From Rheinheimera sp. (lineage in GTDB: Bacteria > Pseudomonadota > Gammaproteobacteria > Enterobacterales > Alteromonadaceae), in NCBI GenBank assembly GCA_008015325.1, contig SSFI01000029.1, forward strand, positions 1-46,588: a stretch of 46,588 bases of DNA, given 5' to 3'. Positions 4,280-9,485 of the stretch are shown piece by piece (the first letter of the stretch is position 1; every line of letters begins with the position of its first letter). The notes below the pieces were generated by a model. It was not told the DNA's origin. It did no database searches and saw nothing but the letters and a program-made list of their open reading frames with translations. The translations under genes were made by a program, and so were the position numbers.

Positions 4280-6562
4280 TCAGAAGGTCTGACCTAATGA
4301 TAGATAAAACCGGTACGGCTGCTCAGAAGCATCCGACTCGGCCTGACCATACCCCAGATACAATGGCCCAAGCGGGCTGTCCCAGCCGGCAAAAATACTG
4401 CCGGCCCAAATCCAGTCATCAGCCTGCACATCCCGCATGGCACTGAAACGCGACTGGCGCACCAGCCCGCGTTCCAGCGAGGTCCCCAGGTAAAACGGTG
4501 CTTTAAACAGACTGAGCCGTGATTCTGGCAACTGATATTGATAAACCAGACTGGCGAACTGAATTTCCGAGCCAAATAAGAAATTCTTCGGGTAACCGGA
4601 TAAGTTCAGCAAGCCGCCGAGCGAAAACTGATCAAGTTCGACCAGATTATCGGCACCGTCGGCGCGCTCAAACCGCAGCCGGCCACGCAGGATATGCGAC
4701 TGCCACTGCCGGGCAGCCTGTGCCTGCACGCCATAAGTCTGACTTTGACTCCGGTTATCCAGATAATCATCATTGAGATGTTGCCAGTTAGCTTCCAGGC
4801 GCATGCCACGACTGGGGAAACTGCGGCTGTCCAGCGTGTCATAACTCAGCTGCCAAAGACTGCCACGACGCAAGTAAGGCAGGCTGTCAAACAGCAGCGC
4901 ACCAGCCAGCACCGCCGGTAAACGGAAACGGCCATCGCGGCGTTGCACCCCAACTGAGAGCTGTAGCGGATCTATTGGCTCCCAGCCCAGCGCAGCGCTG
5001 AGCGCCAGTTCGCGCTGATTCAGCTCGCCACCGGAGCGACCCGCTTCATCTTCCAGCGCAAACACAGTGCGGCTTTGCTCAGCATGCAATTCGGTGAAAA
5101 AACCAGAAAGGCCCAACGGCCAATATAAAGTGCTGGCCAGCTGCTTATCAGTGCCAAGCGCCAGCACATTTTGTAACGACGCACCATAAGGCGACAGCCC
5201 GGTCGACAAATGTGACGCCGCCAGCTGATAGTTGTGGGTATTTTCAAAATCGTCTTCCAGCTGAAAGCGAAAATCCAGATAAGCCGGCCCCCAGCTTTTC
5301 GGTTCGGCGCGCAGCAACAGCCGCTGCTGACCGCTGGCGTCGAGCTGCAAAGTGCTGCTGACCCGCTCCAGCGTGTCGAGGCCATAAATGCGCCGCACGC
5401 CTTGTTGCAAAGTCTGGAGTGAAACTGGCTGTGCCAGCGGTACATCAAGGCGCTGCAGCAACAACGCATCGGCAAGACCGGTACGGTTTTCCAGAGTGAC
5501 CGCAGCTAGTTCGATGGTTGCCGGCGCTTGCCGGCGCTGCTGTTGCCACTGCGCGTGCCGGGCCGGCTGGCTCAAACGCCCCAGCTGGTTTCGCACTGCG
5601 ATGACCGCAGTTTGACCCGCCGCAATCGCCTGCGGCATTTTGTCAAAATCCAGCGTGCCGACGCTTCTCAGCTCAGGCCGGATTAACACATCGTCCGGCC
5701 CCAGCAACGCCAGTTGCGAACTGACGACTTCAGCCACCAGAAAATTGGTCAGTTGCTCGGTGATCGCCATTGCGCTGTTCAGCTCTTTACCGGATAACAG
5801 CGGCGCATCAATAGACACAGCAATAATACGTTCTGCGCCAAGTGCTTTAGCGACACTAACCGGCAGATTATTCGCGACGCCACCATCGACCAGCAGATGA
5901 TTCTGCAGCTGCATCGGCCGCACCACGCCGGGAATAGACATCGACGCCTGTACTGCATGTAATAAATTGCCCTGACTTAACACCACGGCTTCGCGGTTAG
6001 TCAAATCAGTCGCCACAGCGCGAAATGGCACTGCCAGTTGATCAAAACTGCCAAGCTCAGGCACCAGACCATAAGCCTGTTGTAACAGCGCGGCCATCGC
6101 CTGACCGTGCAAAATCCCTTTGGGCACCCGCAAGCCCTCGGGACCGACGCCTAAATCCAGATTGATTGGAAACTGGTCGCGTTGCTCTTTCCGCCGCACC
6201 GGCACTTCGTCGCGATCAACCCGGTCGCGAAAACCTTCATTCCAGGGTAGCTGCAGTAATAATCGCTCGATCTCGGCTGGCGTTTTGCCCTGTGCATAAA
6301 GCCCGCCGACAAAAGCGCCGATGCTGGTGCCGACAATCAGATCCACCGGGATTTGCTGCGCTTCTAACTGCCGCAGCACCGCCACATGCGCGCCACCGCG
6401 GGCACCACCACCGCCCAGCACCAATGCAACACAAGGCCGGCCCTGAACACGGCTGCAAGGGCCGCTGTCTGCCGGGTTCTGCTCAGCCCATGCCTGTGCA
6501 GTCCACAGCAAAGCGGCGACACAACAACTCAGGCCAGGCCAGCCCCTTGGTCTTACCTGCAT
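4280..6562 (-). CDS. PlpD-like patatin phospholipase with outer-membrane barrel
   Basis: Predicted type Vd-like autotransporter of 760 residues. A signal peptide ends near residue 26 (QAWA). The patatin domain follows: oxyanion loop GGGGARGG (50-57), nucleophile Ser80 in GTSIG, catalytic Asp226 in VDGGVANNLP. A POTRA-like linker comes next (about 330-410), then a C-terminal barrel ending in Phe (SLGQTF), the pattern of Omp85/BamA-type surface antigens. By analogy with Pseudomonas PlpD it should act on phospholipids at or outside the outer membrane. GAGGGAAC lies just upstream of the ATG. It is first in an operon with glpK. It is transcribed divergently from the nuclease pseudogene across about 295 bases in which I see no other gene. 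Domain assignment is strong; substrate is inferred. Confidence 0.93.
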   Translation of the reverse strand: MQVRPRGWPGLSCCVAALLWTAQAWAEQNPADSGPCSRVQGRPCVALVLGGGGARGGAHVAVLRQLEAQQIPVDLIVGTSIGAFVGGLYAQGKTPAEIERLLLQLPWNEGFRDRVDRDEVPVRRKEQRDQFPINLDLGVGPEGLRVPKGILHGQAMAALLQQAYGLVPELGSFDQLAVPFRAVATDLTNREAVVLSQGNLLHAVQASMSIPGVVRPMQLQNHLLVDGGVANNLPVSVAKALGAERIIAVSIDAPLLSGKELNSAMAITEQLTNFLVAEVVSSQLALLGPDDVLIRPELRSVGTLDFDKMPQAIAAGQTAVIAVRNQLGRLSQPARHAQWQQQRRQAPATIELAAVTLENRTGLADALLLQRLDVPLAQPVSLQTLQQGVRRIYGLDTLERVSSTLQLDASGQQRLLLRAEPKSWGPAYLDFRFQLEDDFENTHNYQLAASHLSTGLSPYGASLQNVLALGTDKQLASTLYWPLGLSGFFTELHAEQSRTVFALEDEAGRSGGELNQRELALSAALGWEPIDPLQLSVGVQRRDGRFRLPAVLAGALLFDSLPYLRRGSLWQLSYDTLDSRSFPSRGMRLEANWQHLNDDYLDNRSQSQTYGVQAQAARQWQSHILRGRLRFERADGADNLVELDQFSLGGLLNLSGYPKNFLFGSEIQFASLVYQYQLPESRLSLFKAPFYLGTSLERGLVRQSRFSAMRDVQADDWIWAGSIFAGWDSPLGPLYLGYGQAESDASEQPYRFYLSLGQTF

Positions 6563-6857
6563 GATGTTCCCTCGCCCGTTACTGCACCGGTTAAAAATAA
6601 TGCTTTAGTGTAAATAAAAGTGCCAGCCCTTTCCTGCTCTCAGATCAATAGCTTAGTAAAAAATATGTCAACTTATTTTACAGTAACTGCAATATTTTCT
6701 GAAAACCTTAATAAGAGTTTATTCAAATTGTCACAAAGGTTATTTAACGTGCCAACCCCTGGTCGGAGCAGAGGCAAAATAACAACTGGTCAGGGCGCTC
6801 GCTTCCGTGTCAGCGAAGCTGGCAATTAAATCTAAGCTCTTACAAACGGACGTCACC

Positions 6858-8856
6858 ATGAAACTAAATATGTTGTTGCTGGCGATGCTGCTGGCCCCGG
6901 CAGTGCATGCAGAACCTTTTATCTCTGAATATGTGGAAGGCTCATCGAGCAATAAAGCGCTGGAGATCTACAACCCGGCCGATGTTGCGCTGGATCTGAG
7001 CGGTTATTCAATCAAAGTATTCTCCAACGGTGCCACAACTGCCGGAAAAACAGTTGCGCTGAAAGGTACGCTGGCCGCCAAAAGCACCCTAGTGTTAACA
7101 GACACTGGCTCAGTCGCAACGCTGGCCGCCAAAAGCAATATGACTTTTGGCACCAGTAACTTCAACGGTGACGATGCCATCGCTTTATTCAAAGGCACAG
7201 AAATCATCGATGTAGTCGGCCAGATTGGCACTGATCCTGGGGAACAACAGACAAAGGGACCAAAGACAACACTTTAGTCCGCAAAGCCAGTGTGACCCAG
7301 GGCGACGCCAATGGCAGCGACGCCTTTGACCCGAGTGTGGAATGGGATTTTTACGCCAAAGACGATTTCTCTAATCTCGGCGCCCATACCGGTTCAGGTA
7401 GCGGTAGCGGTGAAAGTGGTGGCGGCGTTGTCGTTCCGCCAGAAGGGCCGGCCATCGGCAACTGTGGCGACAGCGCGACGCTGATCAGCGCCGTGCAAGG
7501 CAGCGGCGCTGCGTCGCCGGAAGCGGGCAAAACAATGGTCGTTGAAGCCGTGGTCAGCCGCGTTACCGCCTTTGCCAGCGGTTTTTATATTCAGGAAGAA
7601 GCCAACGATTCGGATAATAACCCGGCGACTTCAGAAGGCATTTTTGTCTATAACGATACAGCCACTGACTATCCGGTCGTCGGCGACAAAGTGCGGGTAC
7701 TGGGTAAAGTGGAAGAATACTTCACCAAAACCCAAATCCGCCGCAGCAGCCTGCTGGCATGCGGCACGGCCACAGTGCCATAACCAGTCAGCGTGACACT
7801 GCCAGTCAGCAATCTGAACGTCAGGCCAGCAAAATAGTCGCCGCGTTAAGCAACATCAACGCCGATGTGGTTGGTCTGATGGAAATTGAAAACGACGGTT
7901 ATGGCAGCCAAAGCGCTATCGCTGATTTAGTCAGCCGGCTGAATCAGCAACTGGGTGCTGGTACTTACCAGTTTGTGCAGGTGCCAGGCACCACGCAACT
8001 GGGCACTGATGAGATCAGTGTGGGCATGTTGTACAAACCCGCCAAAGTGACGCCGGTTGGTAATGCCGTCACCACCAGCGCCGGGGTGTTTGGTTATGGC
8101 AACCGCCAGCCGCTGGTACAAAGCTTTAAACAAAACTCCAACAATGAAGTGTTCACTTTTGCTGTGAACCACTTCAAGTCGAAAGGCAGCTGCCCAAGCG
8201 GTTCCACCAATCCTGATCGGGATTTCAAAGACGGCCAGAGCTGCTGGAATGCAACCCGCGTGCAGGCCGCCACTGAGCTGACAGCATGGCTGGCGACGAA
8301 CCCAACTGGTTCTGCCGACAAAGACGTGCTGATCATGGGTGATTTAAACGCTTACGCCAAAGAAGACCCGATTGTGACGCTGACCAACAAAGGCTTTATC
8401 AATCTTGTAGAGAAGTTCCAGGGTAACCGTGGTTATTCGTACCTGTTTGGTGGCGAAAGTGGTTATCTCGACCACGCCTTAGCCAGCGCGGCATTGTCGC
8501 CGCAAGTCAGTTATGCAATGGAATGGCATATCAATGCCGACGAAAGCACCGTATTTGACTACAACCTGGAAAATAAAACTGTGCAGCAGCAGGCGGACTT
8601 CTACCAGCCTACACCGTTCCGCGGTTCTGACCATGACCCGGTGGTGGTTGAACTGGCATTAAAAGCGACGAACCCGGCTGACCTGGATAAAGACGGTGAC
8701 GTCGATAGCAACGACATCACTTTGTTTAACAACCTGCTGAAATCAGGCGTGAAACTGGGTCTGGAATACGATTTTAACAAAGATGGCGTGGTTTCCAGCA
8801 GTGACGCCCGTGCGATGGCAACACTCTGTACCTACGCCCGTTGCGCTATCAAATAA
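6858..8856 (+). pseudogene. ExeM/NucH-type extracellular nuclease, disrupted, dockerin-like C-terminus
   Basis: Three consecutive fragments in three different frames make up one secreted DNase of the ExeM/NucH family. Fragment 1 (6858-7277): signal peptide ending AVHA and a lamin-tail domain (FISEYVEGSSSNKALEIYN). Fragment 2 (resuming in another frame near 7262, ending at a TAA at 7781-7783): an OB-fold-like domain (FYIQEEANDSDNNPATSEG). Fragment 3 (from about 7825): the C-terminal part of an endonuclease/exonuclease/phosphatase domain with VVGLMEIEND, VNHFKSKG, MGDLNAY and GSDHDPVV. The catalytic-domain start, including the usual FNVLNYF-type motif, is absent, so an internal deletion near 7826 is likely besides the frameshift near 7240-7262. 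The end (about 8679-8853) carries two calcium-loop repeats, DLDKDGDVDSNDITLF and DFNKDGVVSSSDARAM, a dockerin-like pair. A real pseudogene is more likely than sequencing error because of the missing segment. Confidence 0.85.
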
Positions 8857-8889
8857 CTATCAAATCATTTGTTGTTGAAGGAATTTAGT

Positions 8890-9438
8890 ATGAAAAAGTT
8901 AATCGCATTGTTTGCGCTGTGTATCGCCTTTAGCAGCCAGGCGACAGTCATTAAAATTGAGCTGGATAAAACCCAATATCAAAAAGACGACCTGGTACAG
9001 GCGCAAATTCGGTTACAGGGTTATACCGACGGTCTGGCTGGTTTTAAACTGGACCTGAGCTACTGGGCGGCGGCGCTGGGTTTTGAATCTGTCACTTTTG
9101 GTCCACATTTTACCGCTTTTACCACCAGCACCTCTGACGTTTTAAAAACCGGCAGTATCTTAACTCTCAGTGATATGAATTACCTGGATTTCGATTACGA
9201 ACTGGCAGCTATGCAAAACGCCGATTTTGTTGCTGCGACAGTGATATTCAAAGCATTAGGCGGCGGGATGCACAAACTGACGCTGAGTAATATCGAGCTG
9301 ACCGATGCCTTAGGTCTTGAGGTGAAAGACTTCACTGCAGAAAACGCCCTGGTGAATGTCGCTGGACCTGCAGTGCCTGCTCCGGCTACAGCTCTGCTGT
9401 TATTGCCTGCACTGCTGTTGCTGCGCCGTCGCAGCTAA
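8890..9438 (+). CDS. Cohesin-like domain protein with PEP-CTERM-like sorting tail
   Basis: Small exported protein of 182 residues. A signal peptide ends SSQA (residue 18). Residues about 20-155 look like a cohesin-type beta-sandwich: LDKTQYQKDDLVQAQIRL, then GLAGFKLDLSYWAAALGFESVTFG and ADFVAATVIFKALGGG, the arrangement seen in cohesin domains attached to PEP-CTERM proteins. The C-terminus has VPAPAT, a hydrophobic stretch and RRRS, a PEP-CTERM-like signal recognised by exosortases, with PAPA in place of PEP. The ATG at 8890 has AAGGA 8 bases upstream; an ATG at 8869 lacks this. It begins 33 bases after a nuclease gene that ends in a dockerin-like module, so a cohesin-dockerin partnership is plausible. 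A terminator follows at 9459. No exosortase gene is in the window. Confidence 0.8.
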   Translation: MKKLIALFALCIAFSSQATVIKIELDKTQYQKDDLVQAQIRLQGYTDGLAGFKLDLSYWAAALGFESVTFGPHFTAFTTSTSDVLKTGSILTLSDMNYLDFDYELAAMQNADFVAATVIFKALGGGMHKLTLSNIELTDALGLEVKDFTAENALVNVAGPAVPAPATALLLLPALLLLRRRS

Positions 9439-9458: not shown

Positions 9459-9485
9459 AGCCGGCGCAATGCCGGCTCTTTTATT
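9459..9485 (+). terminator. Rho-independent terminator after cohesin-like gene
   Basis: A 7-base stem AGCCGGC (9459-9465), 5-base loop and perfect complement (9471-9477), followed by CTTTTATT. It lies 20 bases after the stop codon of the cohesin-like gene. It closes the nuclease/cohesin unit and separates it from the GGDEF-EAL operon. Confidence 0.85.

Follow-up and report, generated by a model that had tools for sequence, protein, structure and literature searches.

The PEP-CTERM/exosortase system was reportedly described by Haft in 2006, and to our knowledge it is still open what most PEP-CTERM proteins do. For cohesins and dockerins outside the cellulosome, the excerpt of PMC5244752 cites Peer et al. 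2009 and states that their role is not known; exosortase and dockerin are both mentioned in that excerpt, each treated apart. GlyGly-CTERM is the topic of the excerpted rhombosortase paper PMC3237569. Here we describe a gene pair in a 46,588-nucleotide stretch of DNA from Rheinheimera sp. (the whole of contig SSFI01000029.1, assembly GCA_008015325.1, hereafter the window), in which a gene for an ExeM/NucH-type nuclease ending in a dockerin is followed by a gene for a small protein with a single cohesin and a PEP-CTERM-like tail. The locus is probably one copy of a two-gene docking module that recurs in the bacterial family, the binding and the location of the products being predicted from their domains. 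What was observed in favor of this reading is the identity of the domains, the order of the genes, their nearly one-to-one pairing and its repetition with different proteins, the co-occurrence with exosortase, and the different nuclease tail of Rheinheimera genomes that lack the cohesin. The features of the locus are as follows.

6849..7274, + strand: nuclease piece 1, N-terminal, with a Lamin Tail Domain (PF00932 LTD, E 4.9e-16; NF033680, E 1.3e-31)
7292..7783, + strand: nuclease piece 2, in a different frame (NF033681, E 4.3e-17; NF033680, E 1.4e-17)
7759..8856, + strand: nuclease piece 3, with most of the endonuclease/exonuclease/phosphatase domain and the dockerin (NF033681, 397.8 bits; PF03372, E 1.6e-9)
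8671..8856, + strand: type I dockerin at the nuclease C terminus (PF00404 above cut-off; calcium loops 8680-8715 and 8770-8805)
8827-8829 and 8842-8844, + strand: codons of the C-terminal Cys pair of the dockerin, both Cys invariant in 21/21 Rheinheimera dockerins
8877..8882, + strand: GAAGGA ahead of the ATG at 8890, a putative ribosome-binding site noted by direct reading of the DNA
8890..9438, + strand: cohesin gene (PF00963, E 7.4e-4, below cut-off; profile of relatives against PDB; Foldseek; tail by pattern)
8890-8943, + strand: signal peptide of the cohesin protein, recognized by eye
about 8950-9276, + strand: single cohesin domain
9373-9435, + strand: PEP-CTERM-like tail, VPAPA-hydrophobic-RRRS, found by pattern
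9459..9477, + strand: terminator-like hairpin and T-run after the cohesin gene (consensus scan; 8 pairs, 6 of them G-C)

The first-pass annotation of this DNA had proposed a dockerin-like tail with two calcium loops on the nuclease, and profile searches bore this out. Dockerin_1 (PF00404) scored 30.4 bits on positions 8671-8853 (curated cut-off 22.9, E 4.4e-7) and both calcium loops are complete, which places the final ~60 residues of the nuclease among the type I dockerins. The Asp/Asn positions of the loops are invariant in all 21 Rheinheimera dockerins compared, and the profile of these dockerins matched PDB dockerins at E 3.6e-4, with matches that end short of the Cys pair. This pair was present in 89 of the 90 dockerins examined (four longer dockerins were set aside), and the dockerin ends 3 residues or fewer from the end of the protein in 90 of the 94 pairs of the family survey described below. 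At four loci (L121, L136, L142, and L144) the order is reversed: the cohesin gene comes first and is followed by a gene for a protein that starts with a signal peptide and a Cys-bearing dockerin. This position close to the N terminus suggests that the Cys pair is part of the dockerin module rather than a C-terminal signal; the pair may form a disulfide. Two further loci (L130 and L143) look similar in their profile matches, and at three others (L182, L186, and L195) the dockerin is internal, with ~210 residues after it (PKD domains in L182) and a cohesin gene adjacent.

With the last base of the nuclease stop codon at 8856 and the first base of the cohesin ATG at 8890, the gap is the 33 bases given in the first-pass annotation. 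We placed the start at this ATG because GAAGGA lies ~8 bases upstream of it; TTG 8869 is a less likely start. Taken alone, the window cohesin scored 20.2 bits against PF00963 (E 7.4e-4), short of the curated cut-off of 24.1, and the same model matched 19 of the 21 Rheinheimera cohesins at E <=1 (best 5.4e-6). A profile of the 21 cohesins matched scaffoldin cohesins in PDB at E 3.7e-12, the best sequence match being 3l8q, a scaffoldin adaptor chain of Acetivibrio cellulolyticus titled type II cohesins. We also ran Foldseek on a predicted model, the first of two AlphaFold2 models of a dockerin-cohesin read-through (mean predicted local distance difference test score, 65; six-row alignment). The 50 matches listed, of 182 at E <=0.001, were all cohesins or cohesin-bearing chains by title, the best E value for this cohesin/dockerin model being 8.9e-10. 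Based on the PDB profile match and the Foldseek matches, the downstream protein is assigned a cohesin fold, in agreement with the cohesin-like domain that had been annotated there.

The PEP-CTERM-like tail fared less uniformly. Its layout (VPAPA-hydrophobic-RRRS) was found as annotated, and none of the PEP-CTERM models passed on the window cohesin protein. We therefore did not retain a strict PEP-CTERM assignment, which the models do not support, and we base the looser one on the tail layout and on relatives: outside Rheinheimera, PF07589 matched 27 and TIGR02595 matched 24 of 40 tails at E <=0.1. A VPAPA-hydrophobic-RR tail common to unrelated proteins was also seen at L026 and L027, as a sorting signal would predict. 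The hairpin at 9459..9477 is consistent with a transcription unit made of the nuclease and cohesin genes, although the region holds 10 terminator-like sites versus 4.2 in shuffled sequences, so this hairpin is weak by itself.

We then compared 22 genomes of Rheinheimera, a genus placed in the Alteromonadaceae in GTDB and in the Chromatiaceae in NCBI. A two-cohesin profile identified 10 cohesin-bearing genomes with a total of 21 cohesin-dockerin pairs; it gave 23 matches, two of them weak and confined to the tail of proteins that are otherwise unrelated. Besides that of the window there are 20 cohesins, and each sits directly behind a dockerin-tailed frame, 15 to 127 bases apart (at one of these loci, of the M9 type in genome G016, the contig ends inside the enzyme frame). 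The enzymes of these pairs are of three types, namely, ExeM-like nucleases, M9 collagenase-like proteins, and a second endonuclease/phosphatase-fold protein. Loci L041 and L049 show this third type, in which the dockerin-bearing protein again has an adjacent cohesin. In nine other pairs of the ExeM type the nuclease frame is long, 852 to 903 codons from stop to stop, the match to the nuclease family having been checked on one of them, that of the genome we take to be Rheinheimera texasensis; the pair is thus kept in relatives with a long nuclease. Together with the dockerin and cohesin matches above, this means that none of the three outcomes named as refuting in the first-pass annotation was observed.

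An ExeM relative is encoded in 22 of 22 Rheinheimera genomes, and in all 10 cohesin-bearing genomes the long ExeM-type nuclease bears a dockerin. Among the 12 cohesin-free genomes, 3 show only a shorter ExeM paralogue and 9 keep the long form, with 47 to 48% identity to the body of the R. texasensis enzyme. None of these nine proteins (L217-L225) ends in a dockerin; eight end with a short hydrophobic segment and one with a hydrophobic stretch and basic residues. With a dockerin in 10/10 cohesin-bearing genomes and in 0/9 long forms elsewhere, the C-terminal device of the nuclease varies with the presence of the cohesin.

A search of the whole window genome detected two cohesins of this kind and two Dockerin_1 matches, both above cut-off, which together form two adjacent pairs. 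The second pair (L033, contig C87 of the window genome, 170-3295) consists of a dockerin-ending frame, 27 bases, and a cohesin gene whose product has a VPAPA tail. Its enzyme is M9 collagenase-like, the R. texasensis counterpart matching PF01752 at E 5.5e-89, and its frame is long, unlike that of the broken window nuclease. Among the dockerins and the cohesins of this kind found in this genome, with no general PF00963 search made of it, there was neither a multicohesin scaffoldin nor a carbohydrate-active enzyme with a dockerin: the dockerins are on the nuclease and the collagenase-like protein, and both cohesin proteins carry one cohesin each. Membership in a cellulosome was rejected on account of these single cohesins, in line with the first-pass annotation, which had seen no sign of a cellulosome.

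In the family as a whole (395 genomes from 52 genera), the cohesin profile matched 144 genomes in 31 genera and the dockerin profile 173 genomes in 36 genera; both profiles were found in 133 genomes and the cohesin alone in 11. Among the cohesin loci listed outside Rheinheimera, one per genome, 20 of 20 had a dockerin-tailed frame directly upstream. For 94 of 150 cohesins listed, the upstream dockerin was listed as well, at a distance of up to 226 bases in 91 cases and of 759 to 788 bases in 3. From the other 56 we fetched 40 and found a dockerin upstream of 29, downstream of 6, and none for 4, with 1 unreadable. The 134 cohesins examined thus divide into 123 with an upstream dockerin (6 of which rest on E >1e-3), 6 with a downstream one, 4 with none, and 1 unreadable. 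Conversely, 40 of the 56 dockerins without a listed cohesin were fetched, and 25 had a cohesin downstream (2 at E >1e-3). These figures describe the fetched samples, which leave aside sixteen cohesins and sixteen dockerins of the two sets of 56. No dockerin neighbor was found at L125, L127, L132, and L139, each of which encodes one cohesin-like protein ending in a tail of the sorting type. In a class-wide search with the dockerin profile (E 1e-5), 8 of 369 genomes matched; 5 belong to other families, and at 2 of these 5 loci a cohesin-profile match lies downstream.

From 120 loci we defined 94 pairs, with gaps of 4 to 265 bases, and sorted their partner proteins by blastp (E 1e-8) into 12 groups: 36 partners were ExeM-like, 22 were M9-like, and the rest formed smaller groups. 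Eight groups have long sequences and the other 4 rest on ~98 residues; one of the eight, an IgGFc-binding-like group of 3 loci, depends on dockerins that match weakly (E 0.017-0.079). The ExeM and endonuclease/exonuclease/phosphatase (EEP) groups have PF03372 in common, and PKD, PASTA, propeller, and IgGFc-binding-like domains were present among the partner representatives scanned. A chance adjacency of the two genes was rejected because they stand together again in other genera and beside a variety of partners. The first-pass annotation had imagined a one-enzyme/one-scaffold system that fixes a secreted DNase. The one-to-one principle gained strength from the second pair of the window genome and from the survey across the family; its restriction to a DNase did not, given the eight long partner groups.

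The survey of relatives also linked the pair to exosortase. A PF09721 match above cut-off was found in 8 of the 22 Rheinheimera genomes, all 8 among the 10 with cohesins; the two cohesin-bearing genomes without a match are the window genome and G012. In R. texasensis, the exosortase is XrtA and lies within an XrtA/PEP-CTERM exopolysaccharide gene set (L205, 3241-13000). Over the family, exosortase (E <=1e-10) was detected in 258/395 genomes overall, in 139/144 genomes with the cohesin, and in 129/133 genomes with cohesin and dockerin; the association with the genomes matching both profiles has a Fisher p of 4e-25, a value uncorrected for phylogeny.

These data suggest the following scheme. The upstream gene would yield a secreted protein, here a DNase, that ends in a calcium-binding dockerin with the conserved Cys pair, and the downstream gene would yield a small secreted product that combines a single cohesin with a tail of the PEP-CTERM type. 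The cohesin protein would be exported, its tail processed by exosortase A, and the processed protein held at the envelope or in the exopolysaccharide matrix. The enzyme, exported separately by its own route, would dock on its partner cohesin through calcium-dependent binding of the dockerin and so might work near the cell. We find it fairly likely that this docking is decentralized, many secreted or surface-type proteins each having a Cys-bearing dockerin and their own exosortase-sorted single cohesin, free of any scaffoldin. If so, the surface matrix of the cell would hold a mosaic of enzyme sockets, and PEP-CTERM sorting and noncellulosomal cohesins would gain one concrete common job.

Several observations weigh against a docking module. 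The window genome itself gave no PF09721 exosortase match, although its 139-contig assembly may hide genes, and together with three others it makes up the genomes that have both genes without an exosortase match. At the profile level, the Pfam Cohesin model matched 19 of 40 members outside Rheinheimera at E <=0.1, and within the genus the tails matched PF07589 in 3/21 and TIGR02595 in 3/21, weakly, at E <=1. No cohesin match was obtained in 40 of the 173 dockerin genomes, and none was detected inside the fetched stretch for 15 of the 40 fetched dockerins. AlphaFold2 predictions of two dockerin-cohesin read-through pairs (six rows each) had predicted template modeling scores of 0.50 and 0.55 and showed no usable interface. 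Lastly, the co-evolution of the two modules beyond linkage is modest, and shared history contributes to it.

The alternative that survives best concerns the window strain alone: its pair may be a relic or an assembly artifact, with little left to anchor, and we give this slightly better than even odds. The family placement of the nuclease stood, piece 3 scoring 397.8 bits against the ExeM/NucH model NF033681 (cut-off 300), for which the open R. texasensis copy scored 657.7 bits; a single open frame did not, as the gene lies in three pieces. Piece 2 (7292..7783) gave no match in the Pfam scan. It and piece 1 matched NF033680 (exonuc_ExeM-GG), whose members presumably bear GlyGly-CTERM, going by the model name. 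The pair regions of the window genome and R. texasensis share 83 to 85% DNA identity by blastn. Compared with R. texasensis (G021) and a second relative (G016) by tblastn and blastn, the window gene has a frame change near 7240 relative to R. texasensis and lacks ~500 bases near 7811-7825 that are present in both relatives and fall early in the catalytic domain. A scan of the window genome yielded no further near-identical nuclease piece, only a shorter paralogue with 43% identity on another contig. Similarly, the 19-kb XrtA region of R. texasensis had no DNA match in the window genome, in a search run without a positive control. The broken nuclease and the exosortase not found make it probable that this copy is decaying or badly assembled; it appears to be failing, and the docking idea suits the relatives better than the strain of the window. 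Against a mere relic, the enzyme of the second pair is encoded by a long frame, and the cohesin and dockerin still look constrained: the ratio of nonsynonymous to synonymous substitution rates (dN/dS) was 0.13-0.15 in the cohesin and 0.025-0.14 in the dockerin, while the C-terminal part of the nuclease gave 0.05-0.10, rough values since several dS exceed 1. In view of these low ratios, the break is probably recent or an assembly error.

A different possibility is that docking is shared, any enzyme binding to any cohesin of the cell while gene order sets only the dosage. We consider this unlikely, since copy numbers are near one-to-one and the genes adjacent, and since the two dockerins of the window genome differ on alignment at loop positions (SN/SS versus RR/QR) that we take to correspond to known recognition positions. 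Some of the data nevertheless fit shared docking. The nearest relative outside the genus was of the same enzyme type for 13 of 19 cohesins and 11 of 19 dockerins, in a test that covered the Exe and M9 types and left out two EEP pairs; the modules are therefore not cleanly sorted by enzyme type across genera, and a private specificity by enzyme type was set aside as weak. The modest co-evolution points the same way: given the distances between enzyme bodies, the partial rank correlation between dockerin and cohesin distances was 0.28 for Exe (reached by 0 of 500 shuffles) and 0.21 for M9 (reached by 7 of 500).

Adjacency and near one-to-one pairing would equally suit a private escort, in which the cohesin retains its enzyme in the periplasm, or helps to export or fold it, and provides no lasting anchor. 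The sorting-type tail, recognized by TIGR02595 in 24 of 40 members outside the genus, and the co-occurrence of the cohesin with exosortase make such an escort improbable. That the dockerin is just a calcium-stabilized end cap with an incidental cohesin neighbor is highly improbable: dockerins lacking a detected cohesin neighbor would fit it, but adjacency recurs with eight long-sequence partner groups, at four loci a Cys-bearing dockerin lies close to the N terminus of a protein whose gene follows that of the cohesin, and the nuclease tail differs in cohesin-free genomes.

Upstream of the pair, a 760-residue open reading frame (4280-6562) contains a GGGGARG stretch that resembles patatins and has a C-terminal half that is presumably barrel-like.

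The docking module that we propose combines known parts. Our literature search found no account that joins cohesin/dockerin with PEP-CTERM/exosortase, though an earlier mention in Peer et al. 2009 is possible, and nothing that links a dockerin to an extracellular nuclease or Rheinheimera to exosortase. Judged by title and abstract among the matches listed, the literature on dockerins and cohesins in Gammaproteobacteria, in Alteromonas, or in noncellulosomal settings, and on exosortase and PEP-CTERM in Alteromonadales, contained no such pairs either. A small, repeated pair of a protein and its socket that co-occurs with exosortase offers one testable answer to the roles of both noncellulosomal cohesins and PEP-CTERM proteins. 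If true, it would be a very simple natural cohesin-dockerin anchor, with one socket per enzyme and varied cargo for comparison.

The pair resembles the type I and type II cohesin-dockerin systems of cellulosomes in its Dockerin_1 module with two calcium loops at the enzyme C terminus and in its cohesin fold. It differs from them by having one cohesin per protein, an adjacent partner gene, a PEP-CTERM-type tail, and a Gram-negative host, by carrying DNase and collagenase-like proteins instead of cellulases, and by an extra Cys pair at the dockerin end, beyond the reach of the PDB matches. With the noncellulosomal cohesins and dockerins it shares modules that stand outside cellulosomes, and Foldseek also lists 2xdh and 2jh2; here, in contrast, the modules recur as a defined pair of genes, accompanied by a tail of the sorting type and an exosortase. 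The signal peptide, the tripartite C-terminal tail, the co-occurrence with exosortase, and the XrtA gene set in R. texasensis correspond to the PEP-CTERM/exosortase (XrtA) system, from which the pair departs in that the protein being sorted would itself offer another protein a place to dock and that the Rheinheimera motif is VPAPA-like and scores weakly. Finally, ExeM nucleases with GlyGly-CTERM belong to the same enzyme family (NF033681) and likewise have a C-terminal placement device, whereas the tail described here is a dockerin, whose attachment is presumably noncovalent.

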